DNA from: Propionispira arboris
GTDB taxonomy: Bacteria > Bacillota > Negativicutes > Selenomonadales > Selenomonadaceae
Length of the DNA: 64,000 nt
Direction: 5' to 3'
Assembly: GCF_900109225.1 (NCBI RefSeq)
Contig: NZ_FNZK01000005.1
Span: 186,001-250,000 of the forward strand
In this document: positions 7,097-58,797 of the stretch, one piece after another
How the letters are laid out: each line of letters begins with the position of its first letter
Numbering within the stretch: position 1 is the first letter of the stretch
Position numbers and translations under genes: made by a program
Notes under the pieces: model-generated
The model's database searches: none
What the model was told of the DNA's origin: nothing
The model's input: the letters and a program-made list of their open reading frames with translations, nothing else

Positions 7097-7705
7097 ATGG
7101 CTAAAACACTTGGCTTTATTATAAATTCTACAGATGAGGTTTTTCGGCGGCGAATTTTAGAGTCGGCAAGAACGTTGTTCATTGAACAAGGCGTTGAGAA
7201 TGTGAATATGCATCAGATCGCAAAAATGGCTGAAGTTGGGCAAGCGAGCTTATACCGCCGCTATACAGAAAAAGGTGATATTTGCATGGAGATCGTACGC
7301 GAAGAATGTCAGCCTTTATTTGAAGACGTGAAAGCGTATCTTGATCAATCTACGGAAGTTCCTCCTTTAAATCGACTCTATCAAGTAATCGAAAAATTTG
7401 TTGCTTTTTTGGAGGCGAAGGTTCCCTGGTTATGTGCAGTAAGTCGAGCTTCATCTGGATTTCGTCCATTGCAATCGCCACTATATCAATCGATGCGCAT
7501 TACATGCCAGGATTTGTTGAATGAGGCCGTTGAACTAGAAGACGTAGAGGATGTGGATGTTTTGTATACCGTAGAGGCATTATTGGCTGCACTTCACAAC
7601 ATTGATTTTCATATCCAAGATCAAGGGTTTTCAACGAAACAAATTTTGCAAGGCTTACGCCGAATTTTCATTGAAGGATTAAAAAAAAATCCTGTACCCA
7701 AATAG
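7097..7705 (+). CDS. TetR-family repressor of the aiiA-MFS unit
   Basis: 202 residues. The N-terminal 60 residues form the TetR helix-turn-helix (ILESARTLFIEQGVENVNMH, then IAKMAEVGQASLYRRYTEKG); the rest is an all-helical ligand-binding and dimer domain without a recognisable subclass. AAGGAGA precedes the ATG by 8 bases. It is divergent from aiiA, and the two palindromic operators between them make it the obvious repressor of both directions. The inducer may be the MFS cargo or an acyl-homoserine lactone; nothing in the sequence decides this. Confidence 0.85.
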   Translation: MAKTLGFIINSTDEVFRRRILESARTLFIEQGVENVNMHQIAKMAEVGQASLYRRYTEKGDICMEIVREECQPLFEDVKAYLDQSTEVPPLNRLYQVIEKFVAFLEAKVPWLCAVSRASSGFRPLQSPLYQSMRITCQDLLNEAVELEDVEDVDVLYTVEALLAALHNIDFHIQDQGFSTKQILQGLRRIFIEGLKKNPVPK

Positions 7706-7720
7706 GACATATTGGAATAG

Positions 7721-7860
7721 AGAGGTAAACATGCACTTGTAGGACTGCATATTTACGAAAAATCCAACAAATACCTAAAGAAGATTGGATTCATATCAGT
7801 TAATGAAAGATATTCAGTAGGACATTCATTTTTATTGAATCACTTTATACCGAACGGTAC
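7721..7860 (+). pseudogene. Remnant of an unrecognised gene
   Basis: Frame without a start codon that reads like the end of a protein (GLHIYEKSNKYLKKIGFISV, then NERYSVGHSFLLNHFIP) and then runs into the terminator sequence. An out-of-frame ATG at 7731 stops after three codons. Probably a C-terminal relic; the family is not identified. Confidence 0.3.
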
Positions 7861-11342: not shown

Positions 11343-12740
11343 ATGTTTATATTGGATCATAATGGTCAGCAGCCATTACATGCTAAAATCTATGATCAGC
11401 TTAAAAATCAAATATTATCGGGGGAATTATCTCCCAAGACGAAGCTTCTATCTATTAAAAACCTAGCTGGCGAATTATCGGTAAGCCGTAATACGGTGGA
11501 ATATGCCTATCAACAGTTATGTGCAGAAGGGTATATATACAGCAAGCCAAGAAGTGGATACTATGTGTCATTCATAGATCCGGAATTTCTTTCAGCAGCT
11601 TTTCATCCAATTAGCGCATATTCCCCAAAGGCCTTTGCCAACGAAAAAGTATATGCTTTTGATTTTCATCCGGCTTGTCTTTCACCAGGGAGTTTTCCTA
11701 TTAACTTGTGGCGTAAACTTTATACAGAGTGTTTAAAAGCAAGTCCGAAGCAACTTGCTTTCTATAGTAATCAACAAGGCGATTTTGCATTACGCTGTCA
11801 GATTCAAAAATATTTGGCACGCTCTCGGGGTGTTTCTTGTGAGCCTGATCAAATCATCGTTTGCTCGGGGCTTCAGGATAGTCTTTCAATTATCGCACCA
11901 ATATTGAGAGAAAATCATTCTAACTTTGCCATGGAAGATCCTGGACATTTCATTTCCAAAACTGTTTTCCGTAATCATTCTTTTTCTCTCATGCCCATAC
12001 CAGTAAAATCAGATGGTCTAGACTTGGAATTTTTACAAAATACGAATAGTACAGTTGTATATGTCACACCTTCTCACCAATTTCCATTAGGTTGTGTTAT
12101 GCCTGTGGTAAATAGACTGAAGTTGATTAATTGGGCAGAAACCGTTGGCGGTGTCATTATTGAAGATGACTATGATAGTGAATTGAGGTACTTTGGAAAA
12201 CCAATTCCAGCCTTGCAAGGATTGCACCCGCAAGGCAATATAGTATATATAGGGACTTTTTCTAAAGTATTATCTCCGGCACTTCGAATAAGCTATATGG
12301 TCCTGCCTTACCAATTACTCAGCCTATATCGTAGGTTATTTGCCGATTATTCTACGAATGTTTCATTATTAGAGCAGAGAACATTAAGTATGTTTATGGA
12401 ACAAGGGTACTGGGAACGACATCTGCGCAAAATGCGAACGCTCTATAAAAAGAAGCATGATGCAATAATTCAATCTATCCAGCATCATTTCGGCGATCAA
12501 GCTAACATTATTGGACAGGGAGCGGGACTCCACATTGTTTTAGAGTTAGTTGGTAATTCTCTTAATGAAACGGAACTTATAAATCGTGCGCAGGAAAAGA
12601 ATGTTAAATTATTTTCACTCTCCAGTACATATCTGCATAAAAACAATAATAAGTCTCAAATAATGCTTGGTTTTGGTGGTATGAGTAATCATGAAATTGA
12701 TCGGGGAATAGAGCTATTATATCAAGCTTGGTATTCTTAA
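11343..12740 (+). CDS. MocR/PdxR-type regulator: GntR helix-turn-helix fused to an aminotransferase-fold domain
   Basis: 465 residues. Residues 1-75 are a GntR-type winged helix (PLHAKIYDQLKNQILSGEL, then LAGELSVSRNTVEYAYQQL). The remainder is a fold-type I aminotransferase domain with the PLP aspartate segment IIEDDYDSELRY and the Schiff-base lysine in IGTFSKVLSPALR. Such proteins sense PLP or an amino acid through the aminotransferase domain. The ATG at 11343 is preferred to 11325 because GGTGAG lies just before it. It is divergent from a PNPOx-like flavoprotein gene and may regulate it; PdxR proteins control PLP synthesis, but no pdxST is present here. Confidence 0.83.
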   Translation: MFILDHNGQQPLHAKIYDQLKNQILSGELSPKTKLLSIKNLAGELSVSRNTVEYAYQQLCAEGYIYSKPRSGYYVSFIDPEFLSAAFHPISAYSPKAFANEKVYAFDFHPACLSPGSFPINLWRKLYTECLKASPKQLAFYSNQQGDFALRCQIQKYLARSRGVSCEPDQIIVCSGLQDSLSIIAPILRENHSNFAMEDPGHFISKTVFRNHSFSLMPIPVKSDGLDLEFLQNTNSTVVYVTPSHQFPLGCVMPVVNRLKLINWAETVGGVIIEDDYDSELRYFGKPIPALQGLHPQGNIVYIGTFSKVLSPALRISYMVLPYQLLSLYRRLFADYSTNVSLLEQRTLSMFMEQGYWERHLRKMRTLYKKKHDAIIQSIQHHFGDQANIIGQGAGLHIVLELVGNSLNETELINRAQEKNVKLFSLSSTYLHKNNNKSQIMLGFGGMSNHEIDRGIELLYQAWYS

Positions 12741-12922
12741 ATATAACAATTTTGTATATTGCTTTTGCGTCTTCCATGACTTACTATGAAGCTGGGTGTA
12801 TTTGCAAACCGTCTTAGAAAATATTGTGAACAGTGGGGCTCATCATAGCGGCGTTTTCAACAGGTGGTTACATTAGCGCCACTGATAAAGTAGTCGAAAT
12901 CGTGAAAAAAAGGAGCGATATT

Positions 12923-13651
12923 ATGATAAACAAAGTATTAATTTCCGGTGCAAATAAAGGAATTGGTTTTGAAACTGCCCGCCAATTAGGTCAACAAGGT
13001 TGGTCGATCTTATTGGGAGCACGTAGTGAGGAACGTGGCTTAGCAGCCGTGGCGGAGCTTAAAGCTAGTGGTGTCAATGCGGAATGGATCAAAGTAGATT
13101 TGAATGATGTGTCCACTATTCATGCTGCTACGAAATATATTAAAGCCAATCATGCTGACTTGAATGTTTTGATTAACAATGCCGGTATCCCCGGTGACAT
13201 GCATAAGGATGCTTTAGATTTCAGTACCCTTGAATTACGGGAAGTTTTTGATGTGAATTTCTTTGGAAACTTTGAAATGATTAAAGCCTTTACACCTATA
13301 GTAGCGGTTAATAATGGGCGCATCTTGAATTTGAGCATTCCAACAGTTGCCAGTGATTTCTTTGCACCTTTCGCTTATATGACCAGTAAAGCATCATTAA
13401 ACTCAATGATTGCAGCTTTTGGTGCGTACTATACAAAAAATAATATCTCAGTTGAAATATTTGGTGTGATGCCGGGCGGGATTACGACTGATTTGAACGG
13501 GAATATGACAGGATCATTCATGAAGACTCTTCCGCAAGGGGGCAAGGTCATTGTTGACCTTTTAACGGATGGAAAGCATCACCAAGGCAAGGTATTGAAC
13601 GAATATGGTGTGGCTATGGATTATGAAGCTAATTACTCACTAAAAGCGTAA
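12923..13651 (+). CDS. Short-chain dehydrogenase/reductase
   Basis: 242 residues of a classical SDR: the nucleotide-binding motif SGANKGIGFE near residue 8, the NNAG motif and the catalytic pair in FAYMTSKAS (YxxxK). Arg at the end of the second strand (LGARSEERG) suggests NADP. The substrate is not predictable. Start at 12923 with AGGAG 9 bases upstream. The same frame is open for 30 codons further up (from 12833), without a good ribosome-binding site; that stretch may be a relic of another gene rather than an extension. It follows the MocR gene by about 180 bases. Confidence 0.8.
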   Translation: MINKVLISGANKGIGFETARQLGQQGWSILLGARSEERGLAAVAELKASGVNAEWIKVDLNDVSTIHAATKYIKANHADLNVLINNAGIPGDMHKDALDFSTLELREVFDVNFFGNFEMIKAFTPIVAVNNGRILNLSIPTVASDFFAPFAYMTSKASLNSMIAAFGAYYTKNNISVEIFGVMPGGITTDLNGNMTGSFMKTLPQGGKVIVDLLTDGKHHQGKVLNEYGVAMDYEANYSLKA

Positions 13652-13714
13652 AATCCATATTAAGACTGCAAAATAACGGACGTATTATGAATAGATAAAG
13701 ACGAGGTGCTGACA

Positions 13715-14416
13715 ATGGCAATTTACATCACAGGTGATATTCACGGTGAGCCACGAGAACGGTTTGCCGAACCTTTTGCCAACCTGACGGCTGATGATAT
13801 TGTTATCGTTTGCGGAGATTTTGGCTTGCCGTGGTGGTCTGCTAAATACGGCAAGTCTTGGGGCGATAAAAAACGGTTGAATTGGCTTGCGAAACAACCC
13901 TATACAACCGTTTTTGTCGATGGTAATCACGAAAATTTTCATTTGCTAAACAATTTACCAATAAAAATATGGAATGGCGGGCATGTTCATGAAGTACGGT
14001 CAAACGTGCTGCACTTGATGCGTGGTGAGGTTTTTGATATTTGTGGGCTGAAAATCCTTGCATTTGGTGGCGCACATTCTACTGATCGGAAGTATCGGGT
14101 TTTGGATTTATCCTGGTGGAAAGAAGAAATTCACAATCAGGAGGAGACTGAAAACCTTAAAAAAAATCTACAAGCTGTAGACTATAAAGTGGATATTGTC
14201 ATCACACATGCTGCACCCGTGCGATTTTTGCATCCCAAAACGAAAGATATAGGAATTGACTGGAGCTTTTTTTGTGACGAGGTGGCTGAGCTGCTAACGG
14301 AGATAGAGCCACAGCTTCAATATAAAATGTGGTATTTTGGTCACTATCATTTAGATTGGGTAGATCACGAATGCCATTGTCGTGGTATTTATACAGAGAT
14401 TGATCAACTTTTATAA
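13715..14416 (+). CDS. Calcineurin-like metallophosphoesterase
   Basis: 233 residues with all metal motifs of the family: GDIHG at residues 7-11, CGDFG, DGNHENF, a late THAAP and the final FGHYH. These bind two metal ions for phosphomonoester or phosphodiester hydrolysis in the cytoplasm (no signal peptide). GAGGTG lies 7 bases before the ATG. It lies between the SDR gene and the accessory island, and such genes often travel on mobile DNA, but the sequence gives no clue to its natural substrate. Confidence 0.8.
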   Translation: MAIYITGDIHGEPRERFAEPFANLTADDIVIVCGDFGLPWWSAKYGKSWGDKKRLNWLAKQPYTTVFVDGNHENFHLLNNLPIKIWNGGHVHEVRSNVLHLMRGEVFDICGLKILAFGGAHSTDRKYRVLDLSWWKEEIHNQEETENLKKNLQAVDYKVDIVITHAAPVRFLHPKTKDIGIDWSFFCDEVAELLTEIEPQLQYKMWYFGHYHLDWVDHECHCRGIYTEIDQLL

Positions 14417-14499
14417 GTTAATAGAAAAATAATTTTTATTGTTTAAAAGTAAGGGATAGCATATGAGTTCAATCGGTCGTGCTGAAATAATTGTGTAAA

Positions 14500-14536
14500 C
14501 CTCCAATGTTAGGTGAAATAAAACTAATATTGGAGG
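14500..14536 (+). repeat. Hairpin at the left border of the accessory island
   Basis: CCTCCAAT (14500-14507) / ATTGGAGG (14529-14536), followed by TATTTTATT. Either a weak terminator or part of the end of the IS relic that starts here. A short open frame of 11 codons from ATG 14463 runs into it and is not considered a gene. Confidence 0.45.
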
Positions 14537-14763
14537 TATTTTATTATAGTAAAAAAGAAAATAACAAACTCAATGATATTATCGAAGAGTATGGTATTAA
14601 AGACATGAATGATGCCCATAATTTTGTTAAAATGCTTACGGTTGAAAGCAGCCAGACAGCTCTTGATGCTGAATTGGATGAAAAACATGGTTACTCTAAA
14701 TATGACTACAAAATAAAAACACAAAGAATAGTCGCAATGGCTATAATGGATAAAGTGTTATAG
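14530..14763 (+). pseudogene. N-terminal fragment of an IS256-family transposase
   Basis: About 78 codons. The segment VKMLTVESSQTALDAELDEK followed by HGYSKYDYK corresponds to the conserved front of Mutator-type (IS256) transposases, where a helix ending in AELDEHLGY precedes the RNG motif. Here the sequence diverges right after this point and stops at 14763; no catalytic DDE part exists in the window. It marks a past insertion at the edge of the AT-rich island. Confidence 0.55.
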
Positions 14764-14879
14764 TTGCTTATATCGAAATATATGAACTTGAAGGAATTTT
14801 TATCGTGGTATGGAATTTTATAGGTGTAAGTTAAAATTTAATAATATTATATTTTGATTATAGAAGGTGATGAAATGAG

Positions 14880-15989
14880 ATGACAGATCATTGCTATTTG
14901 TGTGGGGCAGAAATAAATGACGAGAATATTTCAAAAGAACATATCATTCCTAATGCGATTGGTGGTAAGCTAGTATCAATTAAATTACTTTGCAATAATT
15001 GTAATATTAAAACAGGTGACGTAATAGATTTTGCACTTAGCAAGACATTAGAGCCATTGTGTAATTTGATAAATGTTAAGAGAGACAGAGGAACGCCAAC
15101 TAGCCTTAAAATTACACTTCAATCTGGAAAAAAAATCATACTTAGACCAGGTTTTAAACCAGAGGCAGTTCCTAATGTTGAAAAATTAAATAATAAGTTT
15201 AATATTACCGCACGCAATGAAAATGAAGCATTAGAAACATTACGACACCTACAACTGAAATATCCCAGTATAGATGTTGATAATGCAATGGAGAATTTGC
15301 AACATCAAAAAAAATATCTTGATGAAAAAATACCTTTTAAACTTGAGCTCAATGATGAATGTTTACGATCATTAGGGAAAATAATTGCAAATTTTTATAT
15401 TTATAGAGGAAATGATAAAGAAAAAATATCGGAACTAATAGATTTTATAAAAGACGATCAAAAAATAAAAACTCTTTGGCAGTATACAGAAGATAGTCCT
15501 TTTACATTTAATAAATATGGAGTGTATAATATAGTTTCGATAATTGGGGACAGAAATACCAAAAAGCTAGTAGGTTTTGTTGAAATATTTAGTACGATTA
15601 AATTTTTTATTATAATAAATAACAATTATGATGGAGAAACATTTTCACAAAATTATTACTACAATGTCGAAACCGGTGCTAGTGATAAAGATATTATTAT
15701 AAAGACAGTTAAAAAAGAAAAATTTTTTACAAATATTTCAAGAGATACATATGATATTTGTCTTTCTAATTATGAAAAAAGTTTTAATGAATTAATGAAT
15801 TATTGCCATAAAAAAAGCAATGATGAGGCACGTTTTAGCATTATTTCACAGTCTTTTGATGAATGCCAAAGAAGATTTCCTCCTGAAAAATATCCATATT
15901 TTACAGATGAAATGATTGAATTTTTAAGCAAGGACGTTTCAGAAAAATTTGTGTCATACTTATATGAAACGAAACAGTTAGGGCAATAA
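14880..15989 (+). CDS. HNH endonuclease-domain protein of the caspase-associated module
   Basis: 369 residues. The front is a zinc-binding HNH motif: CYLCGAE (Cys5, Cys8), then EHIIPNAIGG with the HNH His, then LLCNNCN. The remaining 300 residues are lysine-rich and match no family I recognise. HNH domains of this HNH_5-like class cut DNA nonspecifically or at a lesion or site chosen by the partner domain. AAGGTGA lies about 10 bases before the ATG. The gene is very AT-rich and lies between an IS256 relic and a caspase-like gene transcribed in the same direction with 105 bases between them, a setting typical of a defence module. No other gene in the window explains it. Confidence 0.7.
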   Translation: MTDHCYLCGAEINDENISKEHIIPNAIGGKLVSIKLLCNNCNIKTGDVIDFALSKTLEPLCNLINVKRDRGTPTSLKITLQSGKKIILRPGFKPEAVPNVEKLNNKFNITARNENEALETLRHLQLKYPSIDVDNAMENLQHQKKYLDEKIPFKLELNDECLRSLGKIIANFYIYRGNDKEKISELIDFIKDDQKIKTLWQYTEDSPFTFNKYGVYNIVSIIGDRNTKKLVGFVEIFSTIKFFIIINNNYDGETFSQNYYYNVETGASDKDIIIKTVKKEKFFTNISRDTYDICLSNYEKSFNELMNYCHKKSNDEARFSIISQSFDECQRRFPPEKYPYFTDEMIEFLSKDVSEKFVSYLYETKQLGQ

Positions 15990-16094
15990 AAAAATATAAA
16001 AGATGATATATACTACAATCTAATTAAAATTAATAGAACCAATAATTTTAATGGTAAAAAAAATATTGATAAATTTCAGGAATGGAGATAATTT

Positions 16095-17576
16095 ATGGGA
16101 CAACATAAGGCATTATTTATTGGAGTAAATCGATATCTGGATAAAACTATACATAGTTTGGATAATGTTATTAATGATGTTGTAGAGATGAGTACAGTGA
16201 TTACGAGTCCACCGAGTAATTTTGCCTCTATGGATAGTAAAATGATTCAACAGACATTGGCTACTCAGGCTATTATTACAGCCGCTGTTAAAGATTTTTT
16301 TCTTAATGCAAACGATCAGGACGTTTTAGTATTTTATTGGGCAGGGCATGGTGCTTTAATAGCTGATGAAGGCTTTTTTATTGCCTATGATTCTGATGTG
16401 AATCATCTTAGAGATACTGCTATTGCTATGCAGGATTTACGTTCTTATATTGAAAAATCGCCCGCTAAAACGGTGATTGCTATGTTTGATTGTTGTCATA
16501 GTGGAGCCATGATGCGTGCGGTAAATGATAATACACAAATGTTACGTGGATTAACAATACAAGGGACTGGAAAAGTGGTTTTAGCAGCATGTACATACAT
16601 GCAAGGTGCTTATGAACATCAGCATCAATCGCATGGGAATTTTACGGCTTATGTTCTAGATGGATTAAAAGGGGCAGCAGCAGATGCCCAGGGAGCAATT
16701 GATGTTAATCAGTTACATTCATTTGTTTCTAGAAAATTGGAGGAAGATGGAAGGCAGATACCTGTTTATTATGGACAGATTCAGGGAAGAATTATTCTGA
16801 AAAATGTGAGTAGAGATATACAAGAAATATCAAGAGTAAAGACCATTTCGCTATTAACGACGACTATTAATGAATCGGGCAATTGGTGCTTATTAAATGA
16901 AATACCTATGCGATTTGTAAGCATTCAGGAAGATAATGAAAATATAGTGCTTACATTGGATAATCTGACATCTCAAGCTGTAACGTACTTAAAGAAACTT
17001 CAACAAAATCTTTACTTTCAAATAAAAATGAGTACGCTAACTTTTCGGAATTATTCATTTAAAATTAAAATAGTGACAGTTTCAAGTGCTGTAAAGGAGA
17101 ATGTTGAAAGTTTCACAGTGCAATTGAGGCGAGATTTAAACACGAATCATATGATGGATATGTCGGTGAGTTTGAGTGGAATGGTTGCGGTTTCTCCTGA
17201 TGAAATTGCAGAATTGCGTGCTCGAAGAATTTTATTAGGAGAAATTAAAAATAATGATTATAGTAAGACAGAATGGAGCCAATTAGAATGGTGTATTGCT
17301 GGACAAGGTGATATAAAAATTGATAAACCTCCTGCAGTAGATCATTTAAATAGTTATCAGGGTTTGAAAGATGATTATTGGCGATTACGCCGTTTACACT
17401 ATATTTATTTATTAGTACACAGTTTCACCGTAGATGTAATTACGGATTTAACATTAATTATTGAAGGAAATCAAATAAATCATATTCAGTTAGAGGCAAT
17501 ACGATCTTCACCATATACTAATGAACCGACAAGAGTTATCAAGATTGCGGAAGATATGATAAAGAACCTTAGCTGA
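16095..17576 (+). CDS. Caspase-like (metacaspase, peptidase C14) protein with a novel C-terminal domain
   Basis: 493 residues. Residues 1-240 are a caspase fold: KALFIGVNRY strand 1, catalytic His85 in FYWAGHG and catalytic Cys134 in AMFDCCHSG, with Asp132 in the same motif. The acidic specificity pocket of metacaspases (cleavage after Arg/Lys) is likely but not certain. Residues 250-493 have no family I can name; they are rich in beta-strand-like segments and end in a helical portion (DDYWRLRRLHYIYLLVHSF), perhaps a sensor. There is no signal peptide. Bacterial caspases in such settings act as death effectors or activate a neighbour by cleavage; the HNH protein upstream and the small membrane protein downstream are candidate partners. 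Confidence 0.78.
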   Translation: MGQHKALFIGVNRYLDKTIHSLDNVINDVVEMSTVITSPPSNFASMDSKMIQQTLATQAIITAAVKDFFLNANDQDVLVFYWAGHGALIADEGFFIAYDSDVNHLRDTAIAMQDLRSYIEKSPAKTVIAMFDCCHSGAMMRAVNDNTQMLRGLTIQGTGKVVLAACTYMQGAYEHQHQSHGNFTAYVLDGLKGAAADAQGAIDVNQLHSFVSRKLEEDGRQIPVYYGQIQGRIILKNVSRDIQEISRVKTISLLTTTINESGNWCLLNEIPMRFVSIQEDNENIVLTLDNLTSQAVTYLKKLQQNLYFQIKMSTLTFRNYSFKIKIVTVSSAVKENVESFTVQLRRDLNTNHMMDMSVSLSGMVAVSPDEIAELRARRILLGEIKNNDYSKTEWSQLEWCIAGQGDIKIDKPPAVDHLNSYQGLKDDYWRLRRLHYIYLLVHSFTVDVITDLTLIIEGNQINHIQLEAIRSSPYTNEPTRVIKIAEDMIKNLS

Positions 17577-17767
17577 AAATAATGGCTGGAACGATAAGAC
17601 GAATCCAATTATTGTAAAAAGTTATGAGTGGATATTCTTCCTCAACATTTGCTAGTAATTAAAACATAATGTTGCCTTAATCAGAGGGTGAAAGTCTGGT
17701 AGTTGGAGTTGTTTCCATAGCGTTTATATAGTAGTCAAATGGGGTTTTGATTTGATGGATAGAAAAA
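17577..17767 (+). other. Spacer between the caspase and membrane-protein genes
   Basis: About 190 bases with no coding frame. It includes GAGGGTGAAAGTCTGG near 17690, which faintly recalls group II intron text, but nothing else supports that. Confidence 0.3.
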
Positions 17768-17780
17768 TAGGAGTATGTTT

Positions 17781-18029
17781 ATGGGGAAAATAATATCTTT
17801 TATAAAAAAAACATTGTTAGCCATAGTATCTTTTTTTATTGTTTATATTGTAAATATAATATGTTTTTATTCTACTAATAGAACAATTTACATCGATAAT
17901 ATTTATGCAATAATTATTGTATCACTCATGATATATTATTTCGGGATGGTACTAATTGAAAAAATAAAAGATAAAAGAACACCAGGTTTTAATAAGAGTT
18001 TGGAAAGTGAAAAATCTGATGCGTTTTAA
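17781..18029 (+). CDS. Small two-helix membrane protein
   Basis: 82 residues starting at ATG 17781, chosen because TAGGAG lies 7 bases before it (an ATG at 17775 would be too close). Two hydrophobic helices, about residues 9-30 and 36-58, are joined by a short polar turn (TNRTIYIDN) and followed by a charged tail (EKIKDKRTPGF). It is one of the most AT-rich genes of the window. It follows the caspase-like gene in the same direction. Small two-helix proteins are common membrane-disrupting effectors in defence modules, and the basic tail offers possible caspase cleavage sites; this is inference. It could also be an unrelated small gene. Confidence 0.6.
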   Translation: MGKIISFIKKTLLAIVSFFIVYIVNIICFYSTNRTIYIDNIYAIIIVSLMIYYFGMVLIEKIKDKRTPGFNKSLESEKSDAF

Positions 18030-18079
18030 TATTGTATCAGATTTTTTAATTCTATAATAAATGTTGGAGTAAGCAAAAA

Positions 18080-18132
18080 ATAGCAGCCATCGATGTATAC
18101 TCAGAGTATGAATATACATCGATGGCTGCTAT
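18080..18132. repeat. Perfect 20-bp stem hairpin
   Basis: Arms 18080-18099 (ATAGCAGCCATCG...) and 18113-18132 are exact complements with a 13-base loop. No T-run follows. It lies 50 bases after the small membrane gene. It may end the module's transcript, or be an inverted repeat of mobile DNA. Confidence 0.6.
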
Positions 18133-18192
18133 ACTTATTTACAGATTAAAAGACAAAGTTCACGTTGGTAATATCTTCTAAAAACCATAAAA

Positions 18193-18226
18193 AAACATGA
18201 TTTTTATAATAAAAAAAATCATGTTT
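18193..18226 (-). terminator. AT-rich hairpin with U-run on the minus strand
   Basis: 13-bp stem AAACATGATTTTT / AAAAATCATGTTT. On the minus strand it is followed by TTTTTATGG. No minus-strand gene is known to its right, so it may guard against antisense transcription or be part of the island boundary. Confidence 0.5.
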
Positions 18227-18240
18227 CAGCCTATTTTTAC

Positions 18241-18268
18241 TTGCAATCGTTACGAAGAGTAATATAAT
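18241..18268 (+). promoter_or_regulatory. Promoter of the stand-alone transcript
   Basis: TTGCAA (18241-18246), a 16-base spacer, TATAAT (18263-18268). Predicted start near 18275. The next gene is about 350 bases away. Confidence 0.6.
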
Positions 18269-18274
18269 TAGAGA

Positions 18275-18536
18275 TAGGTGGAAATTAAAAAAGTCGCCGT
18301 GTCCTAAGAGTGCTGGTACACTCTTAGGCACGAGCAGGTGGTATGGCACCTACACGTAACAGCTAGCTGTCTACGACGACAATTTATTATACCGTGATTT
18401 TCCTTGAGTGACAAGGGAGATGGTTTGTTCGATATGATGTGATTGTAGTTTTGACAGGAGCTTAGCGTCTGCATGCAATTAAGATATATCAAAGCGCATG
18501 TGTAGGTTGAATAAACCCGCGCATGCGCTTTTTTGA
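18275..18536 (+). ncRNA. Candidate structured non-coding RNA, about 260 nt, family unknown
   Basis: A non-coding stretch bounded by a promoter and an intrinsic terminator. Its 5' half folds into a branched unit closed by GTCG (18293-18296) and CGAC near 18373: a long hairpin CGTG-CCTAAGAGTG / CACTCTTAGG-CACG with loop CTGGTA, a second hairpin AGGTG / CACCT, and a third, ACAG / CTGT. The 3' half has CCTTG / CAAGG and a GATAT...ATATC hairpin, then the terminator. It does not match the riboswitches, 6S, tmRNA, SRP or RNase P RNAs that I can recall. It may be a small RNA of the upstream defence-like island or a riboswitch-like leader for the 98-residue protein downstream. Confidence 0.5.
18491..18534 (+). 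terminator. Intrinsic terminator of the stand-alone transcript
   Basis: Stem AAGCGCATG / CATGCGCTT with an inner GGTT / AACC pair, followed by TTTT. Strong in the plus direction. Confidence 0.75.
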
Positions 18537-18621
18537 TTTCCCCTGAAACAAACTGTAGGGTGGGTTCCTTTATTGGATTACAATAGAGAAACCCCTTGCA
18601 GAATGAGGATGGGGGATATAA

Positions 18622-18918
18622 ATGATGATGAAAAATGTATTTGATTCATTGGCTGCCACGAAGGAACAGGAAATTTTGGTTGGCTTAGATTTAAGAAAAT
18701 ATTCTAGTGAATATTTTCATGCCAGCGAAAAAGTCCTTGCGTATCAGGACAAAATCAAAAATGTTTTGCCCTTGGAATTACAGGAAACCTTGGAACAACT
18801 TGATGATGAATATAATTGTATGATGATGAGCGGAATGGACGTATATTATCGACAAGGTTTTTCCGATGCAGTCCGGTTGATTATGGAGACAATGAGTTGG
18901 TCACCAAGACGGAGTTAG
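18622..18918 (+). CDS. Small conserved-type protein, DUF6809-like
   Basis: 98 residues, soluble and mostly helical. The tail YYRQGFSDAVRLIMETMSW resembles the end of the small Firmicute proteins grouped as DUF6809, where a similar RxGFxxGxxLMxE segment occurs; this assignment is tentative. GGGGGA lies 6 bases before the first of three ATG codons. It has a leader with a possible hairpin (GGGTT / AACCC near 18560-18596) and its own terminator, so it is probably a single-gene unit. Function is unknown. Confidence 0.6.
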   Translation: MMMKNVFDSLAATKEQEILVGLDLRKYSSEYFHASEKVLAYQDKIKNVLPLELQETLEQLDDEYNCMMMSGMDVYYRQGFSDAVRLIMETMSWSPRRS

Positions 18919-18922
18919 AAGG

Positions 18923-18967
18923 AACGAAACACCCCAGTGATTTTAAAAATCGCTGGGGTGTTTCGTT
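18923..18967 (+). terminator. Stem-loop after the 98-residue gene
   Basis: Stem ACGAAACACCCCAG / CTGGGGTGTTTCGT with ATTTTTAAAAAT-like pairing in the loop. Very stable, with only a weak T-run after it. Confidence 0.65.
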
Positions 18968-19068
18968 GTGCGCCAAATCTGAATAAAATCGGCAAATAGT
19001 TAGGTTGAGAAACACGAACATCGAAAGCTATTTGCTATAAAAAGAATGGTAAATATGAAAAGACTCCA

Positions 19069-19097
19069 TTGACATAAATTAACAGAGATGTTATTGT
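19069..19097 (+). promoter_or_regulatory. Promoter of the gcv operon
   Basis: TTGACA (19069-19074), a 17-base spacer, TATTGT (19092-19097). Start predicted near 19104, just ahead of the riboswitch. Confidence 0.6.
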
Positions 19098-19140
19098 AAT
19101 CGTATATATGACAGTGAAATAATAAATTAGAATGATGGTT

Positions 19141-19300
19141 ATAGGAGAGATCGCGAAAGCGGCGCCGAAGGAGCAAGAACTTTGTCAAACTCTCAGGTAA
19201 AAAGAACCATAACCGGACTAAACTCTGGAGAGAACGCTCAGATAATGGGCGTCACCGATGGGGAGCCTTTTAGGCAAAACTCTCAGGTACAACAGACAGA
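19141..19300 (+). ncRNA. Tandem glycine riboswitch
   Basis: Two successive aptamers. The first (about 19141-19217) has GGAGAG, the core GCCGAAGGAGCAA and AACTCTCAGGTAAAAAG. The second (about 19223-19300) has CTGGAGAG, GTCACCGATGGGGAGCC and AAACTCTCAGGTACA. These are the paired glycine-binding domains known from gcv operons. A terminator overlapping the end of aptamer 2 completes a switch that allows read-through into gcvT when glycine is abundant. Confidence 0.92.
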
Positions 19301-19344
19301 GACAAAGGTGGATTCGTCCGCCTTTGTCTCTGTCTTTATTTTTT
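19294..19344 (+). terminator. Regulated terminator of the glycine riboswitch
   Basis: Stem AGACAGAGACAAAGG paired with its complement, capped by a TTCG tetraloop, followed by TTATTTTTT. The left arm overlaps the 3' end of aptamer 2, so ligand binding and terminator formation can compete. Confidence 0.85.
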
Positions 19345-19376
19345 GCCCAAATATAAGAAAGAAGAGGAGAGGGACT

Positions 19377-20486
19377 ATGACAGAAGCAAAAAAGACACCT
19401 CTATATGAAACTCATCTGGAGCATGGTGGTAAAATCGTTGAATTTGGTGGATGGTTACTCCCTGTGCAGTATAGCGGGATTTTAGAGGAACATCGAGCCG
19501 TTAGAGAAAAGGCGGGACTCTTTGATGTTTCGCATATGGGCGAGGTGCTTGTGAAGGGCGATGATGCGTTGGCATTCTTGCAAAATTTAGTAACAAATGA
19601 TGTATCTCGCCTTACCCAGAATAAAATACAATATACGCCAATGTGTTATAAAGATGGTGGTATCGTTGACGATCTATTAATTTATAAGCAGGGTGAAGAG
19701 GATTATTTATTGGTCATTAATGCGGCTAATATTGAAAAAGATTGGCAGTGGATGCAGGAGAATAAAGGAAACTTTCAGGTAGAACTAACCAATGTATCTG
19801 CTAAAACAGCACAATTGGCATTGCAAGGACCTCTGGCACAGAGTATTCTTAGCCATTTGACAGATACGAAACTAGAGGAACTCGCGTATTATTGGTTTTT
19901 ACCAAACGTAATCGTAGCTGGTAAGGAAACTCTTATATCAAGAACTGGGTATACTGGTGAGGATGGTTTTGAAATTTACTGTCAGGCTGAGGATGCTGCC
20001 GAGCTGTGGGCTGCGATCATGGCTGCGGGGAAACCGTATGGATTATTGCCAGTGGGGTTAGGTTGTAGAGATACCTTGCGTTTTGAAGCTTGCTTGCCAT
20101 TATATGGGCATGAGTTATCCAAGGATATTTCACCGCTCGAAGCCGGCATTGGGATGTTTGTGAAGCTTGACAAAGGTGAGTTTAATGGTCAGGCTGCTTT
20201 GGCACAGCAAAAGAAAAATGGTGTAAAACGTAAGAGTGTTGGCTTTGTCATAACTGGCCGCGGTATTGCTCGGGCGGAATATCCAGTGATGGCTGAAGGC
20301 AGGCGTATTGGTACAGTAACCACCGGAACCTATGCACCAACTTTAGAGAAGAATATTGGACTTGCTTTAGTGGAAACTGAGTTTGCGAAGGTTGGTCAAG
20401 AATTTGCGATAGAAATTCGCGGTAAAAACGTAGCAGCACAGGTGATTCCTAAACCGTTTTATAAAAGAGAGGGGCAAAAAGTATGA
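19377..20486 (+). CDS. gcvT: Glycine cleavage system T protein (aminomethyltransferase)
   Basis: 369 residues, the normal GcvT length. Landmarks are GKIVEFGGWLLPVQY at the front, GLFDVSHMGEV, NDVSRLTQNKIQYTPMC, and RTGYTGEDGFEIY with the catalytic Asp region. It transfers the methylene group from the aminomethyl-lipoyl arm of GcvH to tetrahydrofolate and releases ammonia. The ATG at 19377 follows GAGGAGAGGG and lies just past the riboswitch terminator. The stop codon overlaps the gcvH start by four bases (ATGA). It is the first gene of an eight-gene operon that also makes the lipoyl cofactor. Confidence 0.93.
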   Translation: MTEAKKTPLYETHLEHGGKIVEFGGWLLPVQYSGILEEHRAVREKAGLFDVSHMGEVLVKGDDALAFLQNLVTNDVSRLTQNKIQYTPMCYKDGGIVDDLLIYKQGEEDYLLVINAANIEKDWQWMQENKGNFQVELTNVSAKTAQLALQGPLAQSILSHLTDTKLEELAYYWFLPNVIVAGKETLISRTGYTGEDGFEIYCQAEDAAELWAAIMAAGKPYGLLPVGLGCRDTLRFEACLPLYGHELSKDISPLEAGIGMFVKLDKGEFNGQAALAQQKKNGVKRKSVGFVITGRGIARAEYPVMAEGRRIGTVTTGTYAPTLEKNIGLALVETEFAKVGQEFAIEIRGKNVAAQVIPKPFYKREGQKV

Positions 20487-20872
20487 ATATTCCAGCAGAA
20501 CTAAAGTATTCGCGTGACCATGAATGGGTAAAAATTGAGGGTAATCAGGCAACAGTAGGCATTACGGATTATGCACAGTCGCAGCTTGGCGATGTGGTTT
20601 TTGTTGAAGTGCCTATCGCTGATACGAGTGTCGTTGTGGGAGCGGGATTTTGCGTGGTAGAGTCAGTGAAGGCGGTGTCTGATATTTATGCGCCAGTTGG
20701 CGGCGAAATTGTCAAAATAAATGATGCACTTACCGATACGCCAGAAATAATGAATGAAGATCCTTACGGCGAAGGGTGGATCGCAGTAATCAAAATAGCC
20801 GATCAAGCCGATTTAGATAATTTACTGAGCAGTGAGGAGTACGAAAAATTCATAACGGAGGAAGGTAATTAA
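20483..20872 (+). CDS. gcvH: Glycine cleavage system H protein (lipoyl carrier)
   Basis: 129 residues. The lipoyl attachment lysine is Lys63 in ESVKAVSDIY, and the front (KYSRDHEWVKIEGNQATVGI) is typical. The protein shuttles the lipoyl arm between the P, T and L proteins. In organisms using LipM, GcvH is also the scaffold on which octanoate is attached and converted to lipoate. That fits the operon here, which carries both an octanoyltransferase and two radical SAM proteins downstream. Translation is coupled to gcvT by a 4-base overlap. Confidence 0.94.
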   Translation: MNIPAELKYSRDHEWVKIEGNQATVGITDYAQSQLGDVVFVEVPIADTSVVVGAGFCVVESVKAVSDIYAPVGGEIVKINDALTDTPEIMNEDPYGEGWIAVIKIADQADLDNLLSSEEYEKFITEEGN

Positions 20873-20873
20873 A

Positions 20874-22220
20874 ATGGCATGGAGCTATTTACCTCATACC
20901 GATGAAGATCGACGGACGATGCTGGCGGCAATTGGCGTAGAAAAAGTGGAAGAAATTTTTTGTGATATCCCTGATAAATTATTATTTAAAAGGCCACTTG
21001 ATTTACCACCGGCAATGTCTGAACCTGAACTTGTCAGCGCAATGCAGAAGTTAGCGGGCAAAAATGCCAATCTGCAGGAGTATACCTGCTTTCTAGGGGC
21101 GGGAGCTTATGATCACTACATTCCGAGTGTGGTTGATCATGTGATCGGGCGGTCGGAGTTTTATACGGCGTATACGCAATATCAGCCAGAGATATCACAA
21201 GGCTATTTGCAGGCTTTGTGGGAATATCAGAGTATGATTTGCCAGTTAACCGGCATGGAGGTTTCCAATGCTTCGATGTATGACGGTGGTACGGCCTTAG
21301 CTGAGGCAGCGATGATGGCTTGCAGTGTTATGCGCCGAAGTGAAGTACTCGTCGCGAGTACCGTACATCCGAATTATCGTGATGTACTTCATACCTATGG
21401 AAGGGATCGGGACTATACAATAACAGAACTCGGCTACGCGGATGGTACTGTCAATTTGGCAGAATCTACTCAGCTCATGAGTAAAAATGTAGCAGCGATC
21501 ATTCTCCAATCACCGAATTTCTTTGGCTGTGTGGAAGATGTGAAAAAATTTGCTGAGCTCGCGCATGCGCAAGGCGCACTCCTTATCGTTGCGGTTGATC
21601 CGATTTCCTTAGGTCTTTTAGAAGCACCGGGCGTACTCGGTGCTGATATCGTAGTCGGCGAAGGTCAACCGATGGGGTTAGCACCTGCTTTTGGCGGTCC
21701 TTATTTAGGCTTTTTTGCGGTGAATGAAAAACTCATGCGTAAAATGCCAGGGCGTATCGTCGGGCAGACAGTAGACCATGAGGGCAATCGTGGCTTTGTG
21801 TTAACTCTGCAGGCAAGAGAACAACATATTCGCAGGGAAAAGGCGACTTCCAATATCTGCTCGAATGAAGCACTATGTGCCTTGACCGCAGCTGTCTATT
21901 TAAGTGCTGTCGGTAAAGTCGGTTTACAGAAAGTAGCGGGATTGTCGCTGCAAAAAGCGCATTATACTTGCCGTGAGCTGACAAAATTGAGTGGGTTTAG
22001 CAGTGTTTTTGGTGCAAGTTATTTTAAAGAGTTTGTGATCCGTTGCCCAAAACCTGTAGCCAAGATCAATGCGGAATTATTACAGGAAAAAATAATTGGC
22101 GGACTCGATCTGGAGTGTTATTATCCAGAACTTAAAAACTGTATGCTCCTATGCGTAACAGAAAACAGAACACAGGGCGATATTGATAAATTAGTTGAAA
22201 AATTGGGGGCGATGGTATGA
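20874..22220 (+). CDS. gcvPA: Glycine dehydrogenase (decarboxylating) subunit 1
   Basis: 448 residues, the N-terminal half of the P protein in organisms where it is split. Markers are [58 protein letters not shown] and GEGQPMG. It pairs with subunit 2 to decarboxylate glycine using PLP. The PLP lysine is in subunit 2, so this half is inactive alone. It starts 1 base after the gcvH stop and overlaps gcvPB by 4 bases. Confidence 0.93.
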
Positions 22221-23668
22221 GGAAAACAAAAGCCTTGATTTTTGAAATAAGCAAAGCAGGTCGCTGTGGATTAGATCTGCCGAAATGTGATGTGCCAGAA
22301 GAAGCAATTGATTCACTGATTCCTCAAGAATTTTTGCGGAAAGAGCCTGCACCATTGCCAGAGATTAGTCAGCTCGATTTAATGCGGCATTATACGCAGT
22401 TGTCGCAGCGCAACTTTGGTGTGGATTCTGGTTTTTATCCACTGGGTTCGTGTACGATGAAGTATAATCCAAAAGTGAATGAGGATGTTTGTCGGTATCC
22501 CGGCTTTTCATTGGTGCATCCGCTGCAGCAGCCGGAAACTGTGCAGGGAGCACTAGAACTACTTTATGATATGGAGCAGTATCTTGCCGAAATTGCTGGC
22601 ATGGATGCGATTACGATGCAGCCAGTTGCTGGGGCGCATGGTGAATTGACAGGGCTCAAACTGATTCGTGCGTATCATCGCCATAGAGGGGAAATGCGAA
22701 CGAAGGTAATCGTTCCAGATTCCGCGCATGGTACCAATCCTGCTTCGGCTGCTGTATGTGGACTCGAAATCGTGGAAATAAAATCAAATGAAGATGGATC
22801 GATTAATCTAGGCGCACTCCGCGCAGCAGTTGGTAAAGATACGGCGGCGCTCATGTTGACGAATCCGAGTACCTTGGGCTTATTTGAGACGAATATTGAA
22901 GAGATTGCCAGTATCGTTCATGAAGCCGGAGGTTTGTTATATTATGATGGAGCGAACGCCAATGCGATTATGGGTATCGTTAGACCTGGTGATATGGGCT
23001 TTGATGTGGTTCATTTTAATCTACATAAGACCTTTGGTACACCACATGGCGGCGGTGGCCCGGGCGCTGGTGCTGTCGGAGTAAAGAGCAGTCTTGCATC
23101 ATATTTACCGACGCCGATTATTACCTTTGATGGCAGTAAATATGATCTCGATTATAATCGTCCAGAGTCTATTGGCAAGGTGCATTCTTTTTATGGAAAT
23201 TTTGGTGTGATTGTTCGTGGTTATGCCTATATCCGTGCTTTGGGACCAGATGGACTGCGGCAGGCCAGTGAGGATGCCGTAATGAACGCGAATTACTGCT
23301 TGAGTCAATTGAAGGAACAGTATCATGCACCTTTTGATCGTTTCTGCATGCATGAGTGTATCTTAAATTCCAAGAAACAAGCCCAATATGGGATTCATAC
23401 CCTCGATCTTGCGAAACGTCTGCTCGATTATGGCTATCATCCACCAACGATTTATTTTCCAATGATTGTAGAAGAAGCAATGATGATTGAACCGACGGAT
23501 ACGGAAAGCAAAGAAACCTTGGATGCTTTTATTGACGTAATGATTAAAATTGCGCAAGAAGCTGAGTCGGATGCAACAGAGATCAAGAGTGCACCCCATA
23601 CGACGGTCGTTGGTCGTTTGGATGAGACCTTAGCAGCTCGTAAGCCGGTACTAAGATGGAAGGCATGA
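22217..23668 (+). CDS. gcvPB: Glycine dehydrogenase (decarboxylating) subunit 2
   Basis: 483 residues, the C-terminal half of the P protein. It has [25 protein letters not shown] and the PLP-binding Lys271 in [15 protein letters not shown]. With subunit 1 it releases CO2 from glycine and leaves the aminomethyl group on GcvH. It is translationally coupled on both sides: ATGA overlap with gcvPA and with the radical SAM gene that follows. Confidence 0.94.
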
Positions 23669-58551: not shown

Positions 58552-58797
58552 CATAATATTATATTTATGTAAACCATGATAGAGAGAGTAAGTTGTGTGT
58601 GTCTTTTACAGGAAGATACTTGTCGTGATTGAGAACGGTATCAAGAGCAACAACTGAAGTTCACTCTGGAGTTTCTTAAGTGAAGGTCATATCCTTAGCT
58701 TGAGCGTTTGCTGCGTTAAAGCTTTTGAGTATCTATTAGGGTGGTACCGCGAAATTTGACTTTCGCCCCTTGTCCGGGGCGGGAGTTTTTTATTTTG
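58552..58797 (+). ncRNA. T-box leader for phenylalanyl-tRNA synthetase
   Basis: T-box core AGGGTGGTACCGCG at 58738-58751, AGAGAG at the base of stem I near 58582, and a specifier TTC (Phe) in GAAGTTCACTC near 58659. The terminator CGCCCC / GGGGCG with a long T-run (58764-58797) ends the leader. Confidence 0.88.

Follow-up and report, generated by a model that had tools for sequence, protein, structure and literature searches.

The region 18241-18536 of the window (the whole 64,000-nucleotide stretch of DNA that was analysed), which looked like a stand-alone RNA gene, most likely encodes two overlapping RNAs instead, namely a small antisense RNA and the leader of a small-protein mRNA that the antisense RNA can switch off. 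That such an overlapping pair is present is considered highly probable. The locus is read as a transcription attenuator controlled by a cis-encoded antisense RNA, with a probability of about 0.7. A broader proposal, favoured only by a little, is that the locus belongs to a natural family of chromosomal antisense attenuators that are orthogonal to one another, in which a frozen backbone would form a portable on/off cassette before unrelated small-protein genes, with at least eight in one genome, two kissing loops per copy diversified against cross-talk, and a range covering Negativicutes and at least one genus of Clostridia. The initial annotation had proposed a stand-alone structured RNA gene of unknown family. 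The unknown family stands as regards Rfam; the stand-alone gene is not supported, since the conserved folded domain is that of an antisense RNA on the opposite strand and the plus-strand transcript is leader-like.

The features of the locus, in coordinates of the window, are the following.

18167..18974, plus strand: whole repeated unit as found in Propionispira (upstream hairpin, plus promoter, leader with the antisense gene, small ORF and its terminator), from blastn against copies L096, L097 and L041
18241..18268, plus strand: leader promoter TTGCAA-N16-TATAAT; among 81 copies TTGCAA is found in 62 and TATAAT in 60
18277..18293, plus strand: 5' strand of helix P1, GGUGGAAAUUAAAAAAG, from the fold; its complement includes the antisense U-run
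18287..18380, minus strand: predicted antisense RNA of about 95 nt, a cloverleaf (fold z -6.5, -45.8 kcal/mol)
18313..18318, no strand assigned: apical loop 1, in hairpin H1 (18296-18335); 39 distinct sequences in 81 copies
18341..18346, no strand assigned: apical loop 2, in hairpin H2 (18336-18351); 64 distinct sequences in 81 copies
18348..18355, plus strand: preemptor ACCUACAC, within the region that the antisense RNA covers; complement of the terminator 5' arm; kept across the family
18385..18392, plus strand: 5' strand of helix P4, TATTATAC, present in 77 of 78 leaders; shares positions with the antisense -10 box
18386..18414, minus strand (18414->18386): antisense promoter TTGTCA-N17-TATAAT; 11 of 12 matches, the top score in the promoter scan
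18494..18534, plus strand: leader terminator, a hairpin followed by a U-run, with the 5' arm GUGUAGGU at 18500-18507; from the folds and from wobble pairs (G.U 9, A.C 0)
18528..18543, plus strand: 3' strand of helix P1, CUUUUUUGAUUUCCCC; from the fold, pairing permutations and wobble pairs (G.U 15, A.C 3)
18622..18918, plus strand: small ORF of 98 aa, DUF6809-like, that would be controlled by the leader; Pfam DUF6809 at E 1e-5, 26.7 bits against a cut-off of 27
18925..18966, plus strand: terminator-like hairpin after the ORF, read from the sequence; a similar hairpin lies behind the ORF in the other Propionispira copies examined

Most of the original description of the stretch was reproduced. 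The plus-strand promoter is present at 18241-18268 with 10 of 12 matches in the promoter scan, a scan in which the region holds 13 promoter-like sites against 8.3 expected, so that a single site is weak evidence. Folding of 18270-18536 is far beyond chance (z -5.8). On extension to 18546 the score falls to z -7.9, because the closing helix P1, which includes the terminator U-run, comes in. The long hairpin, the two smaller arms and their GTCG/CGAC closure are all as described. The terminator-like hairpin with its T-run at 18494-18534 is visible in the folds and is missing from a simple terminator scan, which takes loops of 3-8 nt only. Corrections were needed in extent, strand and copy number. 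The plus-strand structure reaches 18543, where 18277-18293 pairs with 18528-18543 over the terminator U-run; the branched 5' domain is conserved on the minus strand, as an RNA that has a promoter to itself (18414->18386), a feature absent from the initial annotation; and the element is multi-copy, not single-copy.

The suggested comparison with Rfam gave no confident match to a known class, in agreement with the unknown family: no family reached its gathering score in this stretch when the 64-kb window was scanned, or at six other loci. In a permissive scan of 18030-18640 (611 bases), hits touching the stretch stayed at or below about half the gathering score, the best being Atu_C9 (E 0.0064, 19.3 against a gathering score of 40 bits). 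The top hits of that scan overall were miRNA families and came from a separate hairpin at 18072-18140. No tRNA or tmRNA was found by ARAGORN.

A stretch of 311 bp is present at five places in its own genome, with 92-100% identity. Four copies are more likely than five, because L002 and L004 both lie at contig ends and do not differ over the stretch compared. The ends of the repeated unit are sharp: blastn of the window against L096, L097 and L041 ends on the left at 18167, 18167 and 18180, and on the right at 18970, 18974 and 18971, respectively, with 91-94% identity. The element was found in 11 of 60 genomes, own genome included, and a pattern scan of named genomes returned 65 stretches from Propionispira, Pelosinus, Sporomusa, Propionispora, Anaerospora, several MAGs and Desulfosporosinus sp. 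SRJS8. Propionispira belongs to the class Negativicutes and Desulfosporosinus to the Clostridia. With a covariance model the element was detected in 33 of 380 genomes of the class Negativicutes (17 of 102 genera), again with the own genome, and in a phylum-wide sample in 3 of 398 genomes, namely the own genome and two genomes of one genus outside the class; no more than nine candidates were scored per genome, and copy numbers from these scans are lower bounds. A viral collection contained one contig with the element (L098, with the same core as L015), and blastn against plasmid and phage collections gave no match. The total of 97 hits was reduced to 81 distinct sequences. These 81 copies are those that fit the 5'-domain pattern, and more diverged copies lie outside the set. 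Leader-based counts start from the 78 of the 81 that have a terminator match; the alignment of the 5' domain holds 67 of 72 sequences chosen from the 81, and the alignment in antisense orientation holds 40. The orthologous locus of P. raffinosivorans, L063, keeps a copy at the same site. Conservation and covariation in relatives, which had been named as a check on the RNA, were both found.

A G.U pair in an RNA appears as A.C on the complementary strand, and wobble pairs therefore show which strand folds. The helices of the 5' domain, with 32 pairs in 67 aligned sequences, have 111 A.C, 6 G.U and 13 other non-Watson-Crick cells when read on the plus strand, and in H1 and H3 alone the ratio is 109 A.C to 1 G.U. 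These cells are not independent, a single column supplying 41 of the 111; counted by column, 13 contain A.C and 3 contain G.U (p 0.02). The outermost closing pair of the domain leans to the plus strand (4 G.U, 1 A.C). From the excess of A.C it follows that selection acts on the minus-strand RNA. The remaining helices were read on the plus strand with G.U and A.C scored alike in the alignment, and gave 15 G.U, 3 A.C and 27 others for P1 (49 distinct duplexes), 9 G.U, no A.C and 3 others for the terminator (46 distinct duplexes), and 59 G.U, 16 A.C and 22 others for P4 (75 distinct duplexes). In their wobble pairs P1, the terminator and P4 are the reverse of the 5' domain, which indicates that the plus strand has selected parts of its own. 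Consensus folding with RNAalifold yielded -40.3 kcal/mol and 6 pairs changed on both sides in the antisense orientation (40 sequences), and -21.7 kcal/mol and 4 such pairs in the sense orientation (67 sequences). A plus-strand RNAalifold run on 37 short-linker leaders (-58 kcal/mol) was disregarded, as the P1 3' strand was misaligned in it. An antisense RNA that appears to be under structural selection on its own strand is a property of the pT181/pIP501-type class of attenuators. A riboswitch would have its conserved aptamer on the mRNA strand, and the strand test places the 5' domain on the other one.

The minus-strand promoter is kept across the family. TATAAT is found in 79 of the 81 copies and TTGT in 75, and the spacer is exactly 17 in 72 copies, with 15 in four, 18 in three and 19 in two of the others; the pattern by which the copies were collected does not include this promoter. 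Two fixed words of the alignment, TATTATAC at 18385-18392 and ACAAG, fit the minus-strand -10 and -35 boxes. By its score the promoter is unremarkable, 1.5% of shuffled regions reaching the mean of the copies, and the argument for this putative promoter is its constancy across diverged copies and not its score. It is located inside the leader of the gene that would be regulated, as the pT181/pIP501-type class demands. The predicted cloverleaf consists of an 8-bp closing stem (GUCGUCGU/ACGGCGAC), three hairpins and a U-rich tail ending in U6 (18292-18287). The antisense U-run measures just 3-6 nt across the copies, and the plus strand of 18287..18380 also folds well (-39.6 kcal/mol, z -3.9).

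The plus-strand leader is about 270 nt long, with the terminator at its end, and is followed by the small ORF; its start lies 8 nt past the -10 box in 60 of 81 copies. The partners in P1 bind each other better than permuted partners do: 44 of 48 distinct arm pairs beat the cross mean, and the total was reached in 0 of 2000 permutations (77 of the 78 leaders, L031 being left out), a statistic that still includes shared ancestry. Matched changes in P1 are seen, for example, in L022, L074 and L085. The partner of P4 takes 24 forms among the 70 leaders with at least 7 of 8 pairs, while TATTATAC is constant. This is as expected if TATTATAC is constrained by a promoter besides the helix.

The word GTGTAGGT occurs twice in the window, on the minus strand at 18348-18355 in the antisense RNA and on the plus strand at 18500-18507 in the terminator 5' arm. 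The count by itself proves nothing, since 19 of 100 shuffles also contain two or more; what matters is the place and the constancy. In nascent leaders, cut before the terminator 3' arm, the minimum-energy fold includes the preemptor helix, with 6 or more of its 8 bp, in 55 of 78 copies, and enforcing it in all copies costs 0.6 kcal/mol on average. For the window's own copy the cost is 1.7 kcal/mol, and the minimum-energy fold of its nascent leader lacks the helix, as do those of 22 other copies. The terminator belongs to the full-leader minimum-energy fold in 72 of 78 copies; its motif is found in 78 of the 81 copies and was not found in 3. Because the preemptor and the terminator arm hardly vary, covariation lends no support to their pairing. 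From the sequence, the leader thus appears to hold what characterizes the pT181/pIP501-type class, a preemptor in the region targeted by the antisense RNA, with complementarity to the terminator 5' arm, and an intrinsic terminator between the leader and the start codon. Other conserved parts of the leader are a segment between P4 and the terminator (18460-18478), GCTTAGCGTCTGCATGCAA, which is nearly unchanged in short-linker copies, and, past P1 at 18544-18610, another long hairpin (CTGTA...TGCAG) that immediately precedes the ribosome-binding site. By eye, this hairpin is kept in many copies with differing ORFs (32 loci less the partial L023, L024, L030 and L032).

Both promoters, the folding strand of each part, the terminator, the complementarities, the hypervariability of the loops and the association with a small ORF are supported by the sequences compared. 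The proposed mechanism is as follows. Transcription from the plus promoter at 18241 would give the structured leader of about 270 nt and would read into the 98-aa ORF at 18622. The minus promoter within the leader would give the cloverleaf of about 95 nt (about 18380->18287), whose sequence is the complement of roughly the first 105 nt of the leader. When the antisense RNA is absent, ACCUACAC would pair with the emerging terminator 5' arm GUGUAGGU, the terminator would come late, and the ORF would be transcribed. When it is present, it would pair with the nascent leader, with kissing contacts at loops 1 and 2 first; ACCUACAC would be taken into the duplex, the terminator would form, and transcription would end before the ORF. 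Differences in the loops from copy to copy would let each antisense RNA act mainly on its own leader. We infer that both RNAs would be produced, that binding would bring about termination, and that the loops would provide specificity.

The two apical loops are the variable part of an otherwise frozen structure, with 78 distinct combinations of loop 1 and loop 2 in 81 copies. The mean column entropy of the two loops is 0.88 and 1.30 in Sporomusa (14 copies; 0.11 in the rest), 1.48 and 1.07 in Propionispira (8 copies; 0.07 in the rest) and 0.75 and 1.00 in Pelosinus (9 copies; 0.14 in the rest). Among the other columns, the six most variable have 0.80, 0.63 and 1.06 in the three genera, respectively. 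In Pelosinus a six-column stretch outside the loops is thus equally variable, and simple drift may account for some of the variation in the loops. Among 131 within-genome pairs (57 copies of the own and ten named genomes with at least three copies each; genomes with one or two copies and L004, which is identical to L002, left out), loop 1 is common to 6 pairs, loop 2 to 5, and both loops to none; Pelosinus fermentans JBW45 contributes 8 copies and Sporomusa ovata 7. This shows diversity and is not proof of avoidance, because copies from different genomes also seldom share both loops. Between the window and the orthologous L063, loop 1 differs at 4 of 6 positions and loop 2 at 3 of 6. The loops thus account for changes at 7 of 12 positions, and the rest of the leader has 6 in 255 (Fisher p 7e-8); changes number 1 in 82 in the rest of the antisense RNA and 41 in the 297 bases of the ORF. 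The likeliest source of the loop variability is copy-specific recognition, by analogy with kissing-loop antisense systems; a less likely account is that the loops are unconstrained and simply drift. The U-turn motif YUNR is present on the plus strand in 15 of the 39 distinct sequences of loop 1 against 6.9 expected (2 of 1000 shuffles reach 15), and on the antisense strand in 12 against 8.0 expected (80 of 1000 shuffles); in loop 2 it is not significant on either strand. The enrichment would lend minor support to the recognition reading. By eye, no pattern of kissing between loops 1 and 2 within one RNA was seen. A guide-RNA reading, suggested by short variable loops on a frozen backbone, was set aside because no common transposase or nuclease was seen beside the copies read, and because the strand test and the inner promoter offer a simpler account.

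The option in the initial annotation that the RNA is a leader for the small protein at 18622 holds: an ORF of a recurring family lies downstream on the same strand in 66 of 81 copies. By short motifs, which are loose for the first class, the downstream ORFs are DUF6809-like in 26 copies, YRTYRTT in 13, KKQETELY in 13, SymE in 12 and an ACT/PAS regulator in 2, with no class in 15. On reading, six of these 15 (L007, L020, L038, L046, L065, L078) are DUF6809-like as well, and several others end too early to be judged. SymE was identified by Pfam PF08845 in two proteins scanned, at E 3.5e-11 and 5.5e-11, both above the cut-off. DUF6809 is above the Pfam cut-off in the L049 type (E 9e-24) and below it in the L020 type; the MSDGM, MNIPIRS and MLKNIL types gave no DUF6809 match when scanned, and 'DUF6809-like' denotes the short motif alone there. 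No known toxin family was matched in the non-SymE representatives scanned. The AF2 model of the window ORF is all-helical (mean pLDDT 73.8, pTM 0.39) and has no match in the 'pdb' library at E <=0.001; the ORF was not found in viral contigs, and 'DUF6809' is without mention in the literature searched. The model of the YRTYRTT protein is poor (pLDDT 52). L012, L059 and L090 are the ACT/PAS cases, two of them found by motif and a third by eye. In them the leader precedes not a small protein but a gene that starts with an ACT domain (Pfam, L059 type) and looks by eye like a TyrR-like regulator. Outside the class (G714, G752) the element is followed, among others, by a small KMYFQLAA protein and, by eye, by SymE-like and response-regulator-like proteins. 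A plasmid replication initiator was not among the downstream genes read, which are small proteins and a few regulators. At 7530-7824, L041 carries most of the DUF6809-like ORF a second time, following unrelated sequence and lacking the RNA; this is apparently a remnant.

The other option, that the RNA is a part of the HNH/caspase island, is not supported. In P. raffinosivorans, L063 is collinear with the window at 11373-14436 and 18104-22299 with about 95% identity, and about 740 bp replace the 3.7-kb HNH/caspase stretch (window 14437-18103); the unit is there without the island. To judge by this comparison, the RNA unit is unrelated to the island. The island itself is a presence/absence difference between two close Propionispira species. 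At its right edge, where the collinearity of L063 resumes (18104), lies a long near-perfect hairpin (18083-18132), which was not seen at the same locus in L006. Further RNA elements of the window are a group-II-D1D4-3 intron match in Rfam at 453-629 (37 bits), a glycine riboswitch aptamer at 19132-19219 directly downstream of the unit, followed by a gene that we take to be gcvT-like, and a T-box leader at 58567-58773 (Rfam).

Several other explanations of the locus were weighed. The antisense RNA might act on translation or mRNA stability, similar to a type I toxin-antitoxin system, with the duplex blocking the ribosome or being cut by RNase III, and with the hairpin at 18494 merely a part of the fold. 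This main rival is considered unlikely, and such control could also act together with attenuation. It would fit the presence of SymE, a type I toxin family, behind 12 of the 81 copies by motif, and L085, in which the T-run is broken and the P1 pairing kept. The P1 3' strand ends in CCCC, which might pair with the GGGGG ribosome-binding site at 18611-18615 and might mask it once the antisense RNA takes the P1 5' strand. However, some 240 nt lie between the end of the antisense target and the start codon, 78 of 81 copies retain the hairpin motif of the terminator, and the segment complementary to the terminator arm would have no other explanation; most downstream proteins are non-SymE by motif, and the window ORF is modelled as helical. 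It is quite improbable that the cloverleaf of the minus strand serves chiefly as a small RNA acting in trans or as an RNA bound by protein, with the plus-strand leader as a sponge or of secondary importance. The cloverleaf is indeed highly conserved, closed and equipped with its own promoter, but the plus strand too has selected parts (P1, terminator, P4), a conserved promoter and family ORFs in 66 of 81 copies, and the antisense RNA varies most at its apical loops, where contacts in trans would naturally be made.

Control of the ORF by a metabolite riboswitch in the leader is very improbable. A large structured leader with P1, a terminator and a possible anti-terminator before several gene families would suit it, and yet the conserved domain appears to be selected on the minus strand, the leader contains a conserved minus promoter, the downstream families share no evident pathway, and the apical loops are hypervariable. 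Hardly any weight is given to a mobile, MITE-like repeat with a structure that reflects its own transposition, although the unit may have been mobile in the past. The sharp-ended repeat of about 800 bp at several places, the copy L098 on a contig of the viral collection and the ORF behind L015, serine-recombinase-like by eye, point in that direction. Against it, none of the copies read showed a transposase beside it, different copies are followed by different genes, P. raffinosivorans has its copy at the same site, and covariation and two promoters are conserved.

An attenuator under antisense control would resemble RNAI/repC of pT181 and RNAIII/repR of the pIP501 type, which, according to the available part of the source, share the long leader, the internal antisense promoter and the terminator just before the gene (PMC5703833). 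In pT181 the pre-emptor is likewise complementary to the terminator 5' arm, as given in that part of the same source (PMC5703833). In contrast to these plasmid systems, several units are present per genome here, before unrelated small-protein genes and without a replication initiator, and the antisense RNA folds into a closed cloverleaf, the leader has P1 as an additional closing helix, and Rfam has no match. RnaG/icsA of Shigella is similar in its kissing complex, premature intrinsic termination and control of a non-replication gene, to the extent that the accessible sections describe it (PMC5394118), whereas these traits are predicted from sequence here. According to the same sections, RnaG/icsA is one virulence-plasmid locus with a 450-nt antisense RNA transcribed within icsA (PMC5394118), and the present family has many paralogous loci with diverged loops. 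By analogy with the plasmid attenuators and RnaG/icsA, the proposed mechanism is of a known kind.

The Sib/Ibs loci form a family of homologous antisense loci in one E. coli chromosome, as do the loci here. Sib/Ibs, a type I toxin-antitoxin system, also has two recognition sites per pair, as stated in the part of the source at hand (PMC3919570). Sib overlaps the ibs coding region, whereas the antisense RNA here covers the far-upstream leader and is associated with several unrelated protein families. By analogy, Sib/Ibs is the nearest in spirit to a chromosomal multi-copy family. SymE/SymR is a type I toxin-antitoxin system. SymE-family proteins are found downstream of 12 of 81 copies by motif; unlike in SymE/SymR, most copies are not before SymE, and no Rfam family matches the RNA. 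Engineered orthogonal attenuators derived from pT181 are sets kept apart by changes in the recognition hairpins (PMC3753616). The plasmid-derived loop TTGGCG of that paper is identical to loop 1 of four copies here. In those engineered attenuators, the loop alone did not dictate specificity (PMC3753616). Those sets were designed, whereas the present one is natural. No description of a multi-copy family on the chromosome that combines a single backbone with copy-specific loops and varied cargo genes was found in the literature searched, which covered few subscription journals.

Antisense transcription attenuation has so far been known mainly from single plasmid loci. If the reading of the family as orthogonal attenuators is true, it would reveal by what means many RNA switches of nearly the same sequence are kept apart in evolution, a matter so far examined mostly with engineered attenuators, and it would provide a ready set of natural switches. 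It would also point to unstudied small proteins (DUF6809-like, YRTYRTT and KKQETELY) that are seemingly under a SymE-like control.
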